A stretch of DNA of 38,454 bases from Nitrososphaeraceae archaeon (GTDB taxonomy: Archaea; Thermoproteota; Nitrososphaeria; Nitrososphaerales; Nitrosopumilaceae), in the NCBI GenBank assembly GCA_025930495.1, contig JAICOU010000008.1:1-38454 (forward strand), written 5' to 3'. A program made the translations under genes and the position numbers. The notes under the pieces are model-generated. The model was not told the DNA's origin and did not search any database. It saw only the letters and a list, made by a program, of their open reading frames with translations. Below, piece by piece: positions 1,102 through 9,855 of the stretch (the first letter of the stretch is position 1; every line of letters starts with the position of its first letter).

Positions 1102-1683
1102 CTAATGCTGTTTATTTTTTATTGCATATACATCATCAAGTTCTATTAGAACTGCGTTCTCAGTATGTTCCGTTTTTATCTTAGAACCCAACTCAAAAAA
1201 TACTGTCTCATAATATGTTTTAAAAAATAGAGACCACTGCTCACCCATTTCATGGTGCAACACTAATTTTGTATTGTTATTTTCATTATACTCTTTAATT
1301 GAAAATCCTGATGATTTAGCACGATCTTTTAAAATAGAAATCCATTCATCAACACCATATTTTCCTCTCATGGATAATGCAATTTCTTTTGCACCACTTT
1401 CAGCTAAATTTTTTGCTATTTTGATTATTGTTTCATTATCGACGTACTTTACCAATTCTATTAATGCCGATTTTAGCATAACAATCCAGCCTATCTCTGA
1501 AGCATGTACATCCCAGTTTACATGAGAATCAAAAATTTGGTTTACGTATGTATTGAGACTTAATTTCTGATCTTTGGAAATTTTTTTCAAGTTATCCAGA
1601 GTAGTTGTGTTTATTCTAAAACTTGCATGTTCTGTAGGTGTTCTTTTTTTCTGAATCATTGTTAATCTATCTTGGTGATCCAT
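1102..1683 (-). CDS. Ribbon-helix-helix transcriptional regulator with C-terminal sensor-like domain
   Basis: 193 residues. Residues about 18-55 fit a ribbon-helix-helix (MetJ/Arc/CopG type) DNA-binding domain: a short strand (HASFRINTTT), then helix LDNLKKISKDQ, a turn, and helix LNTYVNQIFDSHVNW. The remaining roughly 135 residues are an alpha/beta region I do not recognise (WIVMLKSALIELVKYVD, then GVDEWISILKDRAKSSGF), perhaps for ligand sensing or oligomerisation. A second ATG (MIQKKRTP) nine codons in is an alternative start. The gene is divergent from the DUF1059 gene and the hyf-like cluster, and a perfect 19-bp palindrome at 1775-1793 lies between them, the arrangement expected for a dimeric regulator and its operator. 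Target and ligand are inferred, not shown. Confidence 0.75.
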   Translation of the reverse strand: MDHQDRLTMIQKKRTPTEHASFRINTTTLDNLKKISKDQKLSLNTYVNQIFDSHVNWDVHASEIGWIVMLKSALIELVKYVDNETIIKIAKNLAESGAKEIALSMRGKYGVDEWISILKDRAKSSGFSIKEYNENNNTKLVLHHEMGEQWSLFFKTYYETVFFELGSKIKTEHTENAVLIELDDVYAIKNKQH

Positions 1684-1836: not shown

Positions 1837-2109
1837 ATGTACAAAATAATTTGTAAAGATCTTGGTTTTGACTGTGATTTTATTGTAAATAATAGAGATA
1901 AGGAAATTCTTGCAATTAATTTTGGAAAGCATTTACAAGTTAGCCACAAGCAATATTACCCAAAAAATGAGATTTTTGGTTTTATTGATATTCAAAATAA
2001 GAAACAAAATAATCCTGAACCGATGAAAAATAAAAAATTAACAAGTGTTGATGACTATGGGTTATTTAGATTGGAAAAATGGAATCTAGGTCATAGAAAT
2101 TTTCCATAA
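1837..2109 (+). CDS. DUF1059-like small Cys/His protein
   Basis: 90 residues. The first 40 match the small DUF1059 family: IICKDLGFDCDFIV with Cys6 and Cys13, then His32 and His37 in a KHLQVSH segment, a probable metal-binding Cys2His2 set. The C-terminal half (after about residue 50) is Lys/Asn-rich and not recognised. The gene lies between the divergent RHH regulator and the hyf-like operon on the same strand, 91 bases before hyfB, so it may be the first gene of that transcript. The family's function is unknown; metal binding is inferred from the Cys/His spacing. Confidence 0.7.
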   Translation: MYKIICKDLGFDCDFIVNNRDKEILAINFGKHLQVSHKQYYPKNEIFGFIDIQNKKQNNPEPMKNKKLTSVDDYGLFRLEKWNLGHRNFP

Positions 2110-2200: not shown

Positions 2201-4246
2201 TTGTCAGAAAATCTATCTATACTGTACGTTATTATTGCATTTTTTTCTTTAGGTGCAACTCTGGGATTATTTACTAGAGGACAAAAATATCATACATATT
2301 TCACTTACATTCCATCGGCTTTTGCATCTTTTTTAACAATTATTTTATCCCTTACTATTTTTTCTTCTGAAAGCATACATCTAACTTTTTTTAATATACA
2401 GGATCTCTTTTATTTTGAAATTTTTATTGATGGCGTAGCTACATTTTTCCTCCTAATAATTGGATTGATCTCATTTGCTGTTTCGATTTACTCACTTTCT
2501 TATTCTAAAAAATTTGATGACAAGAAAAATAATTCTGCACTTGGAATGCTGTTCAATGTTTTTATCATCTCCATGATCTTAGTAGTAATTAGTAACAACG
2601 TATTCTTTTTCCTAGTATTTTGGGAATTAATGTCACTTACATCATTCTTTTTGGTTATTTATGAACATGAAAATAAACACAATCTCAAATCGGGTCTAAC
2701 CTATCTAGTAATGACTCATTTAGGAACGGGATTTATTTTTGCATCTTTTATGCTTATGTACACTCAAACTGGAAGTTTTAGTTTTGATTCTTTCAGAGAT
2801 GTTTCAATAATTCCACAATATGTAAAAGATATTGCATTTGTTTTGGCTTTTGTAGGATTTGGAACAAAGGCCGGAATGATCCCTTTACACACTTGGCTGC
2901 CAAAAGCACATCCATCGGCACCAAGCAATGTATCTGCCTTAATGTCTGCAGTAATGCTCAAGATTGCAATTTATGGCATAGTTAGATATCTTTTTGATTT
3001 TAACGCAATTGACAGTTCTCCTGATTATGTATGGTTAGGCGTAGGGATAATCGTTATTGGATCAATTTCGTCACTAGTTGGAATTCTTTACGCCCTGATT
3101 GAAAATGACATTAAACGTGCACTGGCTTTTTCTAGCATTGAAAATATCGGAATAATTTTTATCGGATTGGGGTTATCGGTAGTATTTGCCGCATTTCATT
3201 TGTTGTCTTTGTCTGTTTTAGCTTTTATTGCCAGCATGTTTCATACTTTGAATCATTCAATTTTCAAAGGACTGTTGTTTATGACTGCAGGGTCTATTCA
3301 TTATAGTACACACACAAAGAATATAGAAGATTTAGGAGGCTTGATTAAAAAAATGCCTTGGACTGCCATGATGTTTCTTGTTGGCTCTATTGCCATAATT
3401 GGATTGCCTCCACTTAATGGATTCATAGGAGAATGGTTGACATTGCAATCACTTCTTGCAGTCTTTCAGATACCCTCAAATATTTTACAGGTGTCTCTTG
3501 CATTTGCCGTATTGGCATTTGCACTCACTATCGGTCTTGTAGGTGCAACATTTGTAAGATTATTTGGAATAACTTTCCTGTCAAAAAGCAGAAGTTTCAA
3601 AGCAACAAACGCAGTGGAAGTTCCACGATTAATGCTAATAGGAAAAGCAATTCTGGCATCATCATGTGTTTTATTGGGCATTTTGCCTTTTATTGGAATA
3701 AATTTGATTGTATCTGCTTTTGATTTACCCTATACGCCATCTAGTCCGTTTGAAACAATTTCAATAACAAATACAGATGGCAGTAATTTTGCTAGTCTTC
3801 TAATGCCTGGAGTGCTAGTTATTTTCATATCGGTCATTGTTGGAATTTTTGCATTTGTACGAATTATTGGTGGTAAAACAAAGACAGTAAAATATGGTAC
3901 ATGGGATTGTGGCTTTGGAAGTTTATCTGAAAGAACACAATATACTGCTACATCACTGGCAGAACCAATACGCAGAATTTTTGGTGTTTTTTATAAACCT
4001 AATAATCATATTGATGTTAATTTTTATGCAAAAGAAAATTTATATCTTAAAAAATCTATCAATGTAATTTCTACAACTAGAAATATTTTTGATGAAAAAT
4101 TGTATGGAAAAGTAATCTCAGGTAGCTTGTTTGTGTTAGATAAAATACGAAAAATTCAGTCAGGGAAAGTTAATGCATATATTTTATACATTATGATTAC
4201 TCTAATTGCACTTCTCTTATTCGTAGGATTTGGTACACATGAGTGA
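2201..4246 (+). CDS. hyfB: Hyf/Ehr-like complex, antiporter-type membrane subunit HyfB (NuoL family)
   Basis: 681 residues, many hydrophobic helices, Mrp-antiporter/NuoL-M-N family. It keeps the proton-pathway residues of the family: Glu142 in VFWELMSLTSFF, Lys223 in GFGTKAGMIPLHTWLPKAHP, and Lys254 in SAVMLKIAIYG. The C-terminal extension with TWDCGFGSLSERTQYTATS is typical of HyfB/HycC-type subunits. TTG start, with AAAAGGAAA upstream. It is the first of six tightly packed genes for a complex I-related membrane complex and would act as an ion-translocating module in the cytoplasmic membrane. Closest by motif to formate hydrogenlyase/hydrogenase-4 subunit B; the symbol denotes family, not a proven hydrogenase role. 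Confidence 0.88.
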   Translation: MSENLSILYVIIAFFSLGATLGLFTRGQKYHTYFTYIPSAFASFLTIILSLTIFSSESIHLTFFNIQDLFYFEIFIDGVATFFLLIIGLISFAVSIYSLSYSKKFDDKKNNSALGMLFNVFIISMILVVISNNVFFFLVFWELMSLTSFFLVIYEHENKHNLKSGLTYLVMTHLGTGFIFASFMLMYTQTGSFSFDSFRDVSIIPQYVKDIAFVLAFVGFGTKAGMIPLHTWLPKAHPSAPSNVSALMSAVMLKIAIYGIVRYLFDFNAIDSSPDYVWLGVGIIVIGSISSLVGILYALIENDIKRALAFSSIENIGIIFIGLGLSVVFAAFHLLSLSVLAFIASMFHTLNHSIFKGLLFMTAGSIHYSTHTKNIEDLGGLIKKMPWTAMMFLVGSIAIIGLPPLNGFIGEWLTLQSLLAVFQIPSNILQVSLAFAVLAFALTIGLVGATFVRLFGITFLSKSRSFKATNAVEVPRLMLIGKAILASSCVLLGILPFIGINLIVSAFDLPYTPSSPFETISITNTDGSNFASLLMPGVLVIFISVIVGIFAFVRIIGGKTKTVKYGTWDCGFGSLSERTQYTATSLAEPIRRIFGVFYKPNNHIDVNFYAKENLYLKKSINVISTTRNIFDEKLYGKVISGSLFVLDKIRKIQSGKVNAYILYIMITLIALLLFVGFGTHE

Positions 4247-5186
4247 TTTTTCCATGTTAGATTATGGTCTTGGTATACTTCAGGCTCTTTTACTCATAGT
4301 TTTGTCTCCTTTAATCGTTGGAATGATGAGGAAAATTAAGGCAAAATCCCAAAAACGAATAGGTTCTGGAATTTTTCAGCCATATTATGACATTGTAAAA
4401 TTGCTAAGAAAAGAGGAGATAGTCTCTGATCAAAGTTCTTGGATATTTCGAGCTACACCATGGGTAAATTTTGTTACAACTGCGTCTGCTGCATTTTTTA
4501 TTCCTGTATTTCTCGTCTATTCCCCTTTTGGTGTTGTAGGTGATATTTTGCTTGTTGTTGGTTTGTTTGCACTTGGACGATTCTTTACGATGCTTGCAGG
4601 ACTGGATACAGCAAGTTCCTTTGGCGGATTAGGAAGTAGTAGAGAGATGATGGTTTCTGTACTTGTGGAACCAGCATTATTTATGACCATATTTGTAATT
4701 GCATCATTTTATGGTGGAACAAACATCAGTACAATAGTTTCATCTGCAAATGATACATCTATCTTAATTGTACCTGGAATTCTTTTTGCATTAATTGCAT
4801 TTTTTATTATCATGATGGCAGAAACTGGAAAGATACCATTTGATAATCCCTCTACACATCTCGAGTTGACAATGATTCATGAAGCTACGATGCTTGAATA
4901 TTCTGGAAAAAGTTTAGCACTAATGGAATGGTCTCATGCAATAAAACAAATGATTTTGTTTACATTATTTGTAGACATATTCCTTCCATGGAATTTTGCA
5001 GAACAAATTTCATTAATAGGAATTAGTTTTGGCATAATGCTTTTCATTGTTAAGGTATCGACATTAGCGAGTTTTATTGCCTTTATTGAAACACGGGTAG
5101 CAAAGTGGAGATTATTCAGAGTTTCAGATCTAATTGCAATGGCAATATCTAGTTCTATGATAGGAGTAATTTTCTTTTTTTTGTAG
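4239..5186 (+). CDS. hyfC: Hyf/Ehr-like complex, membrane anchor subunit HyfC (NuoH family)
   Basis: 315 residues from ATG 4239, which overlaps the end of hyfB by 8 bases; a TTG nine bases earlier is an alternative start. NuoH/HyfC hallmarks are clear: KRIGSGIFQPYYDIVKLLRKE near the N-terminus, AETGKIPFDNPSTHLELTM and IHEATMLEYSGKSLALMEW in the middle, and ETRVAKWRLFRV near the C-terminus. This subunit joins the soluble redox arm to the membrane arm and carries acidic residues for proton transfer in the family. The PFDNPSTHLELTMIHEA form is that of the hydrogenase-4 branch rather than Nuo. Several transmembrane helices; translation probably coupled to hyfB. Confidence 0.9.
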   Translation: MSDFSMLDYGLGILQALLLIVLSPLIVGMMRKIKAKSQKRIGSGIFQPYYDIVKLLRKEEIVSDQSSWIFRATPWVNFVTTASAAFFIPVFLVYSPFGVVGDILLVVGLFALGRFFTMLAGLDTASSFGGLGSSREMMVSVLVEPALFMTIFVIASFYGGTNISTIVSSANDTSILIVPGILFALIAFFIIMMAETGKIPFDNPSTHLELTMIHEATMLEYSGKSLALMEWSHAIKQMILFTLFVDIFLPWNFAEQISLIGISFGIMLFIVKVSTLASFIAFIETRVAKWRLFRVSDLIAMAISSSMIGVIFFFL

Positions 5187-5188
5187 GT

Positions 5189-5866
5189 ATGTCTGATTTA
5201 CTCTTGCCAACACAAATTGATTTGTTACATGTATCTGCAGTAATTTTGCTAATTGCTACTTTTGGAATTGTTGTAAGAAGGGGATTTTCAGACTGGTTGC
5301 ATGCATATAGATATCAAACAATAATTCTTGCAGGAATTGTTGCCCTAATTGGATTCATAACTAGTATTTGGGAGCTTTACATAGTATCTGCACTTACATT
5401 GGGAATTAAGGCAATAATCATTCCCAAAGTTTTGTTTTATGTAACAAAAAAACTAGATTCCCCGATTAAATTAGAGATGAACCCCTATGTTAGCCTCAGA
5501 ATCTCTGTAATCGCCTCGGCATTGTTAGTTGCAATGTCTTATTTTATGGCTTTACAATTGCCTATATCCTCAGATGAGACAATCAGCGTATTTCTACCAG
5601 TGTCGTTTTCATTATTTTTTATTGGTCTGTTTATTATAATTAGCAGAAGAAAAGCACTCAGCCAAATAGTGGGATTGTTAACTATTGAAAATGGTTTATT
5701 TTTGTTTGCTGTGGTAGTTACACACGGATTTTCATTAATTATTGAGATAGGACTCATGGCAGATATTTTAGTAGGTGTGATAGTATCTAGCATTTTACTA
5801 TTTAGAATGAGTAAGACATTTGATAGTATAGATATTGAGAATCTAGAAAGTTTGAGGGATGACTGA
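5189..5866 (+). CDS. hyfE: Hyf/Ehr-like complex, membrane subunit HyfE
   Basis: 225 residues, about seven hydrophobic helices, matching the length and pattern of HyfE, which acts as a NuoK-like (plus extra helices) subunit in hydrogenase-4-type complexes. The segment SQIVGLLTIENGLFLFAVVVTHG contains the membrane Glu of the NuoK/HyfE family. It starts two bases after the hyfC stop and its TGA overlaps the ATG of hyfF, so expression is coupled. Small subunits of this type are weakly conserved; the call rests on the ENGLFLFA motif and on position. Confidence 0.85.
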   Translation: MSDLLLPTQIDLLHVSAVILLIATFGIVVRRGFSDWLHAYRYQTIILAGIVALIGFITSIWELYIVSALTLGIKAIIIPKVLFYVTKKLDSPIKLEMNPYVSLRISVIASALLVAMSYFMALQLPISSDETISVFLPVSFSLFFIGLFIIISRRKALSQIVGLLTIENGLFLFAVVVTHGFSLIIEIGLMADILVGVIVSSILLFRMSKTFDSIDIENLESLRDD

Positions 5867-7383
5867 TGTTTACCAATCTATTTTCATCTGTAGAATCTGT
5901 ATTAGTGGTCTCTCTTCTTTTAACTCCAGTGGTCAGTGGCTTGTTAATTACATTATTGAAAAGAAAACGAATCATTGAAACTACTACCATAATTTCTTCA
6001 TCTTTAATATTGATTCAAGGATTGTTTTTGTTACCGTATATTTTAGAAAAAAAGACAATCTCTATTTTTGATGGCACATTTTATCTTGATTCTCTAAGTG
6101 CAATTATGATAATTACAATTTCTCTGGTGGGATTTCTTGCATCTCTTTATTCTGTAAATTACATGGGCAGGCAATATGATAAATTAATTGTAGATGGAAA
6201 AAAGCTTGTCAGATATTATCAAGGATTTAACATGTTCTTATTTACCATGTTGCTTGTTCCAGTTTCTAACAATCTTGGTATAATGTGGATTGCAATTGAA
6301 GCTACAACTCTTGTTTCTGTTTTGTTGATTATGCTTTATACCAAACAAGGCTCAATTGAAGCATCATGGAAATATTTGCTGATAGCTACGGTGGGTTTAT
6401 CTCTTGCACTTTTTGGAATAATTTTCTTTTACTATGCAAATTCTGTTTATGATAATTCCTTTGATTCTACTCATGGGATGGACTGGACAAACATGGTGGA
6501 AAATGCACACTATTTTGATCCTAACCTTGTCAAATTTGCTTTTATTTTCATACTTGTTGGATTTGGAACAAAAGCGGGTCTTGCGCCTATGCATACATGG
6601 CTTCCAGATGCCCACAGTGAGGCTCCATCTCCAATCAGCGCTCTTTTATCAGGTGTTTTGCTGAATTGTGCCTTTTATGGGCTTTTACGATTTCATATAA
6701 TTTCTAGTCATTCCATTGGTCCTGAATTCTCAAATACGTTGTTGATTATTCTTGGAATAATATCACTTGGCATTGCTGCAGCATCGATATATTTTCAGAA
6801 AGATGTGAAGCGTATGTTGGCTTTTTCAAGTATTGAACACATGGGATTAATTTCCGTATCAGTAGGCTTTGGAATTTTCCTAGGGATTTATGGAGCATTA
6901 CTCCATGTGATTAATCATGCTGTAGTAAAATCACTCCTGTTTTTTTCAAGTGGATCAATTTCACAGAAATATCAAACAAAGTCTATTGCAGATACTAGTG
7001 GAATAATTAAGACAATGCCTGTAACTGGTTTTATGTTTTTGATAGGGGGGCTGGCAATAATTGGAATGCCACCGTTTAATATTTTCATGAGTGAATTTTT
7101 AATGTTGAGTTCTGGATTCAGTTCTGAAAACTTTCTTGCAAGTGCACTTGTGATTTTGTTTCTAGTGGTAATATTTGCAAGTTTTGGAAAGCATTTACTG
7201 CACATGGTATTTGGAAATCCAAAATCAGAAATGAAAAAAGAAGATCTTGGAAAACTTTCAATGCTACCAATGATAATTTTGGTTTCAATAATTTTCATAA
7301 TGGGTATTTATGTTCCAGAGCCTTTGCAAACATTAATTGAAGATGCTACAAAAATTATACTAGTAGGTGGAATCAACTCTTGA
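5866..7383 (+). CDS. hyfF: Hyf/Ehr-like complex, antiporter-type subunit HyfF (NuoL/M family)
   Basis: 505 residues, Mrp-antiporter/NuoL-M family. The proton-pumping pair is conserved: Glu145 in MWIAIEATTLVSVLL and Lys236 in GFGTKAGLAPMHTWLPDAHS, followed by EAPSPISALLSGVLLNCAFYGLLR in the HyfF manner and a later KDVKRMLAFSSIEHMG motif. The start codon overlaps the hyfE stop. With HyfB this gives two antiporter-like modules; the third one of E. coli hydrogenase-4 (HyfD) is absent here. The paired Glu/Lys residues suggest the membrane arm still translocates ions. Confidence 0.88.
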   Translation: MFTNLFSSVESVLVVSLLLTPVVSGLLITLLKRKRIIETTTIISSSLILIQGLFLLPYILEKKTISIFDGTFYLDSLSAIMIITISLVGFLASLYSVNYMGRQYDKLIVDGKKLVRYYQGFNMFLFTMLLVPVSNNLGIMWIAIEATTLVSVLLIMLYTKQGSIEASWKYLLIATVGLSLALFGIIFFYYANSVYDNSFDSTHGMDWTNMVENAHYFDPNLVKFAFIFILVGFGTKAGLAPMHTWLPDAHSEAPSPISALLSGVLLNCAFYGLLRFHIISSHSIGPEFSNTLLIILGIISLGIAAASIYFQKDVKRMLAFSSIEHMGLISVSVGFGIFLGIYGALLHVINHAVVKSLLFFSSGSISQKYQTKSIADTSGIIKTMPVTGFMFLIGGLAIIGMPPFNIFMSEFLMLSSGFSSENFLASALVILFLVVIFASFGKHLLHMVFGNPKSEMKKEDLGKLSMLPMIILVSIIFIMGIYVPEPLQTLIEDATKIILVGGINS

Positions 7384-7399
7384 TGATATCCTACATGTA

Positions 7400-7421
7400 T
7401 TATTTTAGAGGTGAAAATTTA
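7400..7421 (+). promoter_or_regulatory. Strong Shine-Dalgarno site of hyfG
   Basis: GAGGTG lies seven bases before the hyfG ATG at 7421. It is complementary to the CACCTC at the 3' end of the 16S rRNA encoded in this window. The site fixes the start codon and lies in the only real gap (37 bases) of the cluster, hinting that the soluble-arm genes get their own strong initiation. Confidence 0.6.
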
Positions 7422-9043
7422 TGAGCCATAAGGAAATAATCAGGAAATATTATTCCAAATTGGGAAAATTTGATTCTGATATAAAAAAAATCGAAAACAA
7501 TAATGAATTGCATCTAGTTCTAAATGATCCCAACAAACTGCATGACTTCTGCAAATTTTTGAAACAGGATTTTGATCTTAGATTGTTGACAATAATCTGC
7601 TGTGATGAACGAAAATTAAACCATGGATTCAAAATTAGGCATGTTTTTGGCTCTGATGCTGATGATTTTTTCTTGTTTGTAACCATATTCATAGATGAAA
7701 GTCATCCACATTTTCCTAGTCTCTACGATGTATTTCCTTCTTCAATTCTATATGAAAGGGAGATTAATGATATGTTTGGATTAATTGCTAAAGGAAATCC
7801 AAATATCAAACCATTAATCTTACACGATTTTCCAAATAATGTTTTTCCACTACGAAAAGACTTTAACTTGAATGATGATGTAAAGAGAAATTTAAAACAG
7901 TTTGAATTTACTCCAATCACCGGAGAGGGAGTATGCGAAATTCCTGTAGGACCAATACATGCAGGAATAATTGAGCCCGGTCATTTTAGATTCAGTGTTC
8001 TAGGAGAAACCATAATCAACTTGGAAACTCGCTTGGGATACACTCACAAAGGAATAGAGAAACTAGCAGAAAGTATGTCGATAAACGATGTTGTATTTTT
8101 GTCCGAAAGAATTTCAGGTGATGAGTCTATAGCAAACTCTGTTGCATTTTGTCAAGCAATTGAAAAAATTGCCAAGTTGACAATCTCACAAAAGGCAAAA
8201 CAAATTCGATTATTGTTTGCAGAATTGGAAAGAATCTATAATCACTTTGGAACACTAGGTGGAATTCTTGCAGATGTTGGATTTCCATATGGCGCATCTA
8301 GATTGAATATTTTAAAAGAGCAAATTATGCAATTAAACGAAAGATTATCTGGAAGCAGAATATTATTTGGAGTTAATCAAATTGGTGGCGTAAAAATTAG
8401 CATAACAGATGAAATGTTAATTGACATTCACTTTGTTTTAGATGATGCTTTTCAGATTTTTGAAAAAATATTTGATCATTTAAAATCAAATCCATCGGTA
8501 ATGGACAGATTACGAAATACTGGCATAATTGAAAAACAACTGGCAAGAGATAGGGGGTTGGTAGGAATATCTTCTAGATGTATTGGTATTGAAACGGATG
8601 CTAGACAGACTCATCCCTACGGCTATTATCCATCAATAAACTTGAAACAAAAGACACTTAGAGAAACAATGGAGCATCAGGTAGAATTACAAAAACGGAT
8701 TGGCGATGTTTTATCTCGATTTATGAGTCGTGTGGATGATTTGAGACAATCAAAAGCCATCATAGACTCTATCACTACTCTAAAAGATGATGGACTATCA
8801 ATGTCTATGAATGATGAATTAATTCCATATTCATCTGGCTTGGGTTATGCTGAATCTCATAGAGGAGAGACGTTACATTGGGTCATGATTGGAGAAGATA
8901 ATTCTATTTTTAGATATAAGATCAGAACAGCTTCTTTTTCAAATTGGCCTGTTATTGAACACGCTGTATTGAATAACATTGTTGCTGATTTTCCAGTAAT
9001 TAACAAAAGCTTTGATTTTTCTTATTCGGGGAATGACTTATGA
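7421..9043 (+). CDS. hyfG: Hyf/Ehr-like large subunit: NuoC-NuoD/HyfG fusion lacking all Ni-Fe cysteines
   Basis: 540 residues: an N-terminal NuoC-like domain (about 1-160, with EINDMFGLIAKGNP and FPLRKDF) fused to a NuoD/[NiFe] large-subunit domain (about 170-540, with EIPVGPIHAGIIEPGHFRF and RLGYTHKGIEKLAE), the HyfG/HycE layout. In [NiFe] hydrogenases, Ni and Fe are held by RxCGxC and DPCxxC. Here the first reads RISGDE (Ser232, Glu235) and the second DFSYSG (Ser534, Gly537), so all four cysteine ligands are gone, and the protein ends three residues later without the usual tail. It therefore cannot hold a Ni-Fe site and belongs with the energy-converting-hydrogenase-related (Ehr) proteins. 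The domain otherwise looks intact and in frame, so it is not a pseudogene. It overlaps the next gene by four bases. Confidence 0.9.
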   Translation: MSHKEIIRKYYSKLGKFDSDIKKIENNNELHLVLNDPNKLHDFCKFLKQDFDLRLLTIICCDERKLNHGFKIRHVFGSDADDFFLFVTIFIDESHPHFPSLYDVFPSSILYEREINDMFGLIAKGNPNIKPLILHDFPNNVFPLRKDFNLNDDVKRNLKQFEFTPITGEGVCEIPVGPIHAGIIEPGHFRFSVLGETIINLETRLGYTHKGIEKLAESMSINDVVFLSERISGDESIANSVAFCQAIEKIAKLTISQKAKQIRLLFAELERIYNHFGTLGGILADVGFPYGASRLNILKEQIMQLNERLSGSRILFGVNQIGGVKISITDEMLIDIHFVLDDAFQIFEKIFDHLKSNPSVMDRLRNTGIIEKQLARDRGLVGISSRCIGIETDARQTHPYGYYPSINLKQKTLRETMEHQVELQKRIGDVLSRFMSRVDDLRQSKAIIDSITTLKDDGLSMSMNDELIPYSSGLGYAESHRGETLHWVMIGEDNSIFRYKIRTASFSNWPVIEHAVLNNIVADFPVINKSFDFSYSGNDL

Positions 9044-9855
9044 AAAAAAGTGATAAAACAAACCATTTGATTGACATATCATTCAAATCAGCTGCAATAA
9101 AAGATCCGCTGAAAATGGATGATACTGTTGCAGCAAATTATCGAGGATATGTCATATTAGATCCTGACAAAGATTTTGTCTTAAAGGATGAAACTGGAAA
9201 AATATTAGAAAACTCATGTCCTACACATGCTATCACATTTCAAAATGATGGTAGTAATTTAAAAATTCATCTAGATAATGGAAAGTGTATTCTATGTGGA
9301 AACTGTCAAGTAAAATCTCCCGAACTAATTAAAATTACAAACAAATTTAATTTAGCAAAAAAAAGAAGAGATGATCTTATCGAAACATTTTCAATGTCTG
9401 TTCCGTTTGGAAAGACATACGATGAATTAGGACAAGAATTAAAAAGTAAAATTAACAAAATTTTTGGAAGATCCCTGACCATTAGAGAAATTGATGCAGG
9501 TTCATGTAATGGATGTGAGATTGAGATCAATGCGTTAAATAATTCTGTTTATGATATTGAGCGATTTGGAATTACTTTTGTAGCATCCCCACGCCATGCT
9601 GATATTTTATTGGTAACAGGTCCTGCATCCAAAAACATGGAAAGAGCATTAAAAATTGCATATGATTCTACTCCTAATCCTAAAATCGTTATTGCAGTGG
9701 GTGCATGTGCATGCAGTGGTGGAATATTTGGCAACAATTATGCCACTACAGGAGGCATAGACAACATTGTTCCTGTGAATGTCTACATTCCAGGATGTCC
9801 TCCCAGACCACAAGCATTGCTTTATGGCATCCTAATGGCAATAAACAAAATCTGA
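9040..9855 (+). CDS. HyfH-HyfI fusion: single-cluster ferredoxin domain plus NuoB-like small subunit
   Basis: 271 residues. Residues about 30-115 align with the two-cluster ferredoxin HyfH/NuoI (starting at YRGYVILDP), but where the first CxxCxxC should be there is none. Kept are Cys60-Pro and Cys83/Cys86/Cys89 (CILCGNC); the last Cys-Pro is Ser93-Pro. As ligands are shared crosswise between the motifs, one [4Fe-4S] cluster keeps all four ligands and the other loses all four. Residues about 145-271 are a HyfI/NuoB small subunit with proximal-cluster ligands Cys156, Cys159 (GSCNGCE), Cys223 (GACACSGG) and Cys253 (PGCPPRP). This gives a two-cluster wire instead of three. In E. coli Hyf these are separate proteins. 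Last gene of the cluster; start overlaps hyfG by four bases. Confidence 0.87.
   Translation: MKKSDKTNHLIDISFKSAAIKDPLKMDDTVAANYRGYVILDPDKDFVLKDETGKILENSCPTHAITFQNDGSNLKIHLDNGKCILCGNCQVKSPELIKITNKFNLAKKRRDDLIETFSMSVPFGKTYDELGQELKSKINKIFGRSLTIREIDAGSCNGCEIEINALNNSVYDIERFGITFVASPRHADILLVTGPASKNMERALKIAYDSTPNPKIVIAVGACACSGGIFGNNYATTGGIDNIVPVNVYIPGCPPRPQALLYGILMAINKI

Follow-up and report, generated by a model that had tools for sequence, protein, structure and literature searches.

Within the window, by which we mean the whole analysed stretch of 38,454 nucleotides, six genes running in the same direction from 2201 to 9855, overlapping or separated by short gaps, encode homologues of HyfB, HyfC, HyfE, HyfF, HyfG and HyfI (Table 1). 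The membrane part of the operon (2201-7383) combines Mrp antiporter-like subunits with a NuoH-like anchor. By alignment, the pump residues E142, K223, K254 and E411 are retained in HyfB, and E145, K236 and E410 in HyfF, where N267 matches E. coli HyfF. The cysteines of the fused ferredoxin-type domain and the four proximal cysteines were intact in every aligned Nitrososphaerota small subunit. HyfB, HyfF, HyfG and HyfI are all under purifying selection, with dN/dS against relatives of 0.05-0.17. In Pfam searches, the operon showed no input gene of the formate dehydrogenase, NuoEFG or Fpo type, and neither formate dehydrogenase nor HyfA/HyfH-type Fe-S subunits turned up in the operon or among its upstream neighbours.

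Table 1. Features of the Ehr locus, with positions in the window and the basis of each assignment.
Feature	Position	Strand	Basis
Divergent 193-aa gene, ribbon-helix-helix-like by eye, possible regulator	1102-1683	-	Synteny in Nitrosarchaeum (L005, L006, L010, L085, L086, L087)
Small DUF1059-type protein, co-travelling with the operon in Nitrosarchaeum	1837-2109	+	Pfam PF06348; synteny
HyfB-like antiporter-type membrane subunit, 681 aa	2201-4246	+	Pfam PF00361; NCBIfam NF005086 (hydrogenase 4 subunit B), E = 2.7e-193, 644 bits (cut-off 667)
HyfC/NuoH-like membrane anchor, 318 aa	4230-5186	+	Pfam PF00146, E = 8.9e-49; conserved charged residues kept
HyfE-like membrane subunit, 225 aa	5189-5866	+	NCBIfam NF008556 (hydrogenase 4 membrane subunit), E = 2.9e-27, under cut-off
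HyfF-like antiporter-type membrane subunit, 505 aa	5866-7383	+	NCBIfam NF005044 (hydrogenase 4 subunit F), E = 2e-155, under cut-off
HyfG/EhrL-like large subunit, NuoC+NuoD domains, 540 aa, without [NiFe] ligands	7421-9043	+	Pfam PF00329+PF00346; HycE nearest by sequence and fold; motifs
Loop GPIHAGIIEPGHF, residues 177-189; E185 equivalent to MbhL E21, I184 at the Nqo4 H38 position	7949-7987	+	Alignments; roles of H38 and E21 from PMC7684303
Former L1 motif RxCGxC, now RISGDE, residues 230-235	8108-8125	+	Translation, alignments
D285, equivalent to Nqo4 D139	8273-8275	+	phmmer alignment; kept in all Nitrososphaerota sequences
Former L2 motif DPCxxC, now DFSYSGNDL, extreme C-terminus, residues 532-540, no maturation extension	9014-9040	+	Translation, alignments
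HyfI/EhrS-like small subunit, 271 aa, N-terminal ferredoxin-type domain	9040-9855	+	Pfam PF01058, E = 4.2e-36
Single [4Fe-4S] motif of the fused ferredoxin-type domain: C60, C83, C86, C89	9217-9306	+	Alignment; weak Pfam Fer4_7/Fer4 hits
Proximal [4Fe-4S] ligands C156, C159 (CxxC, hydrogenase-type spacing), C223, C253	9505-9798	+	Alignment with HycG, HyfI, NuoB

The large subunit was closest to E. coli HycE (PDB 7z0s, chain E), its top PDB match by phmmer (E = 2e-71) and its best fold match by Foldseek (E = 1.1e-31, TM 0.83). A first-pass annotation of this DNA had aligned RISGDE (from residue 230) and DFSYSG (from residue 532) with the two [NiFe] ligand motifs and had concluded that all four cysteines were gone from an intact gene in a tidy operon. 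The translation of 7421-9043 bears this out: positions 232, 235, 534 and 537, which are cysteines in [NiFe] hydrogenases, are Ser, Glu, Ser and Gly, and the equivalent motifs of E. coli HycE/HyfG are RVCGIC and DPCYSC. The only cysteines lie at 44, 60, 61, 172, 244 and 387. No CxxC occurs anywhere in the 540 residues and the reading frame has no internal stop, so that neither ligands shifted elsewhere in the protein nor a frameshift restoring CxxC was found. We then compared 63 non-redundant sequences of energy-converting-hydrogenase-related (Ehr) large subunits, comprising 27 from Nitrososphaerota, 14 from Methanoperedens, Methanomassiliicoccales, Nitrospira and Omnitrophota, and 22 from Patescibacteria, each set thinned at 90% identity with rows chosen without a motif filter. 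A lone cysteine in one Patescibacteria sequence was the only one at any of the four ligand positions. Given the intact frame, the low dN/dS of HyfG against its relatives (0.09-0.17) and the absence of the cysteines across these sequences, the loss is not a sequencing error, a frameshift or chance. Ehr large subunits also terminate at D539-L540, whereas HycE and HyfG of E. coli carry a 32-aa maturation extension. Because Cys-bearing group-4f-like relatives likewise have no C-terminal extension, the alignments suggest that it was probably lost ahead of the cysteines. An AF2 model of HyfG alone (27 relatives, no partner subunits) had a pLDDT of 79 overall and below 50 at residues 159-209 and 524-540, which are exactly the pocket.

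The host genome (1.40 Mb, 99% complete) encodes an archaeal AmoA (E = 1.8e-118), in agreement with the earlier description of the host as an ammonia-oxidising archaeon. HypD (PF01924) was absent from this 99% complete genome in searches whose controls were positive, and no protein with the PF00374 hydrogenase domain was found in it. With neither present, the complex cannot be a [NiFe] hydrogenase; added to the loss of the four cysteines, this upholds the view that a catalytic Ni-Fe site is impossible. A NuoD distinct from HyfG is encoded in the genome as well, within a region of complex I genes (L097). The host's own complex I NuoD (L001:1255-2391 (-), G000 contig C26) reads RPVIHD in place of the Tyr87 motif RxDY and seemingly also has no His38 loop, so that its quinone site looks atypical.

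Group-4 relatedness, the loss of both CxxC motifs and the HyfB/C/E/F/G/I gene set identify the complex, at the level of sequence, as an Ehr complex: a six-subunit assembly resembling complex I and group-4 hydrogenases whose Ni-Fe site has been lost. The same assignment in the first-pass annotation is thereby supported. The type is already published, and the window adds a member to it rather than a new kind. According to the available text of PMC10432482, Cys-less Ehr of Nitrosotalea, Nitrososphaera and Nitrosocosmicus are of "function unknown", and the accessible parts of PMC10284858 and PMC12342949 say the same of comammox Nitrospira Ehr without the ligand cysteines. An FDH-Ehr has been proposed in Margulisbacteria and relatives (PMC6349859), and Geobacter Ehr rises with formate (PMC7894505). 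In these sources, as far as they could be consulted, the Ehr of AOA, Nitrospira, Margulisbacteria, Geobacter and CPR are in print without a proven function. The published complexes share with the window the group-4-like gene set and a large subunit without CxxC; the Nitrosotalea and Nitrospira sequences align with the window protein over their full length and have the SGD and SYxGND motifs in common with it. The host side differs, as the present complex belongs to Nitrosarchaeum/Nitrosopumilus-type genomes, which the available part of the review PMC10432482 does not list.

Known systems resemble the complex in part. The E. coli hydrogenases 3 and 4 (HycE, HyfG; FHL, PDB 7z0s) have the same NuoC+NuoD fusion and provide the best solved match, but unlike it they have the four L1/L2 cysteines, the 32-aa extension, a separate HyfH, HyfD (in hydrogenase 4) and Hyp maturation proteins; the formate dehydrogenase and HyfA/HyfH-type Fe-S subunits that mark a formate hydrogenlyase are missing from the operon. 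Complex I (NuoCD/Nqo4) has a homologous fold, no NiFe ligands and the D139 equivalent, whereas the window complex has no equivalents of Nqo4 His38 and Tyr87, no tandem-Cys N2 motif in its NuoB-like subunit and only six subunits. Like the window complex, the Pyrococcus furiosus MBS (PDB 6u8y) is derived from group 4 and has lost NiFe function, and it generates an ion gradient; by its description in PMC7684303, it differs in keeping two of the four cysteines, in having no E21 equivalent and in its atypical proximal cluster. The nearest Cys-bearing relatives are hydrogenases of Selenomonadaceae, Acidaminococcaceae and Acholeplasmataceae (L033, L035, L039, L040), which we call group-4f-like by analogy with PMC10284858. 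They have in common with the window the GPIHAGIIEPGHFR loop, the order B-C-E-F-G-I where the locus is complete, and the absence of a C-terminal extension. Unlike the window protein, they retain all four ligand cysteines (RxCGAC, LCYAC).

In the tree, the window protein grouped with Nitrososphaerota Ehr (support 100/99). A topology in which the Cys-bearing group-4f-like set was nested inside Ehr, implying regained Ni-Fe ligands, appeared in a tree that included the very long branches of a second Cys-less type and of Nuo, and did not stand once these were left out. Without them, a single Cys-less Ehr clade was not rejected (AU p = 0.54; the tree held to such a clade was 1.53 lnL better). A single loss of the cysteines is thus the simplest reading, though not proven. 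The second type is a distant Cys-less group-4-like large subunit of other Nitrososphaerota (L096:7910-9247 (-), L128:9081-10436 (+), L130:6850-8229 (+)) with the motifs RSAGNF and LSYADSDR and a GPVSSGVPE loop; its gene order in L128 is C-E-F-G-I-B. A true Cys-bearing group-4 large subunit, with RICGIC, DPCFCC and a 27-aa C-terminal extension, was seen in another family of the order (G334, L129:3098-4321 (-)).

In place of the lost ligands, the family carries a signature of its own, SGD ... SYxGND. S534 and D539 were invariant in all three sets of HyfG sequences, and D234 was present in 27/27 Nitrososphaerota, 14/14 of the other group and 21/22 Patescibacteria. G537 was found in 26/27, 14/14 and 22/22, respectively, and N538 in 27/27 and 14/14 but in only 9/22 Patescibacteria. 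Ser alternates with Ala at position 232 (Ala in 8/27 Nitrososphaerota), and position 235 varies by lineage among Glu, Asn, Thr, Met, Ser and Ala: Nitrososphaerota have Glu, Patescibacteria mostly have Met or Ser, and the other group has Asn or Thr. E185, at the position of MbhL E21, is retained nearly throughout, and D285 is conserved in Nitrososphaerota and in the 14-sequence group. In the register of the phmmer alignment, I184 and G233 occupy the positions of complex I H38 and Y87, which are quinone-headgroup ligands (PMC7684303, which also describes the role of MbhL E21). As judged from these alignments, there is no constant set of metal ligands, yet the pocket is conserved, and what fills it is a conserved sequence in its own right rather than decay.

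The Patescibacteria provide a contrast. A HyfG relative was found in 27 of 381 genomes of the class containing an Uhrbacteria genome, and all 20 small subunits examined (L041, L042, L165-L178, L180-L183; e.g. L042:2269-2844) had lost proximal [4Fe-4S] ligands, 13 of them all four and seven of them three. Their proximal motifs read STNAEE/STNACE, GDGA/GDDA and GDPPSP, and a conserved Asp occupies each of the last two positions where a ligand would stand. Their HyfG proteins keep GPIHAGIIEPGHF, SGD and LSYSGxD in nearly all cases, and the membrane subunits are intact. Thus, Patescibacteria Ehr is apparently a complex-I-like assembly without these redox centres, and, as the pocket signature survives the loss of the proximal ligands, redox catalysis alone cannot explain its conservation. 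The available part of PMC7304191 describes the loss of large-subunit cysteines in CPR Ehr; we found no report of ligand loss in the small subunit, which does not prove that none exists. The portions of the Ehr literature at hand likewise do not state the replacement signature, the mobility of the cassette or the Fe-S loss in Patescibacteria.

The operon is patchily distributed. Matches occurred in 35 of 250 genomes of the host's family and 6 of 18 in its genus, and 54 of 400 genomes of the class matched at 1e-40, including five distant matches of ~30% identity. The order B-C-E-F-G-I is common to Nitrososphaerota, Methanoperedens, Nitrospira and the Cys-bearing Selenomonas-type hydrogenases; in Patescibacteria it is I-B-C-E-F-G. 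In Nitrosarchaeum, the operon, the divergent gene and the DUF1059 gene were found together in differing surroundings, and four Ehr-minus congeners (G036, G026, G037, G024) have the metG-side block without the operon. From this gene order, the operon looks like a cassette that is gained and lost. The divergent gene had no Pfam or NCBIfam hit, and its AF2 model was of low confidence (pTM 0.56). A 309-aa gene follows the cassette in L006/L085 and L086, and in L086 it is TFB-like by eye. The window has the divergent and DUF1059 genes where other Nitrososphaerota have an upstream TrmB-like regulator gene: a conserved winged-helix protein of ~200 aa with a weak TrmB hit and a CPNC motif, divergent beside HyfB (L134:14183-14785 (+), L133:1465-2079 (-), L135, L138, L141, L143, L013, L018, L139), which is a candidate regulator. 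In Methanoperedens, G and I are separated by a gene for a dicluster ferredoxin, followed by universal-stress-like and acetyl-CoA-synthetase-like genes (the last two named by eye). A conserved neighbour was considered as electron partner and discarded, as none recurs beside the archaeal operon in the relatives compared. The Ehr large subunit of a MAG labelled Nitrososphaeraceae (L007, QCWD01000076.1; L119, G333) shares 76-77% identity with that of the window and falls within the Nitrosopumilaceae group, through either lateral transfer or a mis-binned contig.

The reading that we favour, and to which we give about an even chance, is that the complex is a ferredoxin-linked, ion-translocating oxidoreductase with a membrane quinone as its most plausible partner, possibly reversed to yield reduced ferredoxin. 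With no gene in the operon for electron input by formate dehydrogenase, NuoEFG or Fpo, the natural donor would be a soluble carrier, for instance ferredoxin. It would dock onto the ferredoxin-type domain fused to HyfI, and electrons would pass from the [4Fe-4S] cluster of this domain to the proximal [4Fe-4S] cluster of HyfI and on to the emptied and remodelled pocket where HyfG, HyfI and HyfC join. At this point they may meet a partner other than H2, most plausibly a membrane quinone headgroup, and the reaction would shift the E185-bearing loop, leading to ion translocation via HyfC, HyfF and HyfB. In the forward mode, reduced ferredoxin would reduce quinone with outward pumping; in the reverse mode, quinol and the ion gradient would yield reduced ferredoxin for biosynthesis. 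The ion, like the direction, the docking ferredoxin and the quinone, is putative. For this reading we count the loss of all ligands, the missing PF00374 and HypD proteins, the intact Fe-S cysteines, the pump residues, the selection, the replacement signature and the conserved D285. For the quinone, solved relatives without NiFe have as a rule a chamber that is more open than that of MBH and serves quinone or polysulfide (PMC7684303), and by analogy this may apply here. Against it count the replacement of H38 and Y87 by I184 and G233, for which the host's own NuoD without Y87 (RPVIHD) is a slight counterweight, and the spacing of the proximal cluster, which is the CxxC of hydrogenases and not the tandem Cys of complex I. 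The host also already has a complex I gene region, so that another ferredoxin:quinone complex would in part duplicate it. Further points against are that most congeners have no operon, that the pocket signature outlasts the proximal Fe-S ligands in Patescibacteria, and that AF2 confidence is low at the pocket. The suggestion in the first-pass annotation of a redox reaction stands in so far as the Fe-S wire is intact here; the reaction itself stays conditional, as the pocket persists in Patescibacteria without the proximal ligands.

The chief rival, unlikely in our estimate, is that the complex is an Mrp-like ion transporter, decoupled from or gated by redox, in which the hydrophilic arm is a structural or regulatory plug and the Fe-S wire senses the redox state. 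The Patescibacteria data favour it for Patescibacteria, where a signature that persists without the ligands is independent of electron delivery. However, Nitrososphaerota, Methanoperedens and Nitrospira retain the Fe-S ligands alongside a ferredoxin that is fused (Nitrososphaerota) or separate (Methanoperedens), and there is selection on them in the window's relatives. Somewhat less probable again, the Ehr pocket would not be a redox active site, and the hydrophilic arm would be a conserved coupling or gating element that archaea gate via ferredoxin electrons and whose proximal ligands Patescibacteria dropped. On a par with the ion transporter we rate a ferredoxin-linked pump that works with another partner, soluble or lipid-soluble, such as NAD(P)H via another subunit, flavin or formate dehydrogenase (FDH-Ehr, PMC6349859). 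Neighbours do vary by lineage, as with the proposed Margulisbacteria FDH-Ehr and the formate response in Geobacter, and the window has a gene for an FMN reductase upstream of the operon (273-848); however, it is not beside the operon in the relatives compared, and no FDH or NuoF gene recurs.

A sulfur reductase like MBS, reducing polysulfide or another sulfane directly at the proximal [4Fe-4S] cluster, is a far more distant prospect. The overall architecture is shared, and in MBS, too, H38, Y87 and some of the NiFe ligands are missing (PMC7684303). However, MBS needs a shortened motif with one Fe without Cys ligation, whereas the window CxxC keeps the hydrogenase spacing; MbsL retains two of the four cysteines and the window protein none; MbhL E21 is missing in MBS and present as E185 here; and an aerobic ammonia oxidiser would have little evident use for the activity. 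We regard as highly improbable a hydrogenase with Ser, Glu or Asp replacing Cys as ligands: R230, G233, Y535, D539 and E185 remain from the NiFe motifs, but the Ala at position 232 in 8/27 Nitrososphaerota and the variation at 235 (E/N/T/M/S/A) leave no constant ligand set, and the genome has neither HypD nor a NiFe-family protein. There is equally little to be said for a decaying relic of a hydrogenase operon, which the patchy presence in the genus would fit, as dN/dS is low throughout and all six genes are intact and syntenic across phyla.

Ehr is present in two major groups of nitrifiers, AOA and Nitrospira, as well as in Methanoperedens. If the pocket serves gating, the Patescibacteria complex would resemble complex I but have no redox centres in either its large or its small subunit. 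The pocket signature (D234, S534, G537, N538), the coupling glutamate E185 and the intact ferredoxin wire of the archaea are testable specifics that emerge from the sequence, and the Patescibacteria, as natural lineages with the pocket but without the proximal ligands, may together with them help to separate the redox and ion-transport hypotheses.
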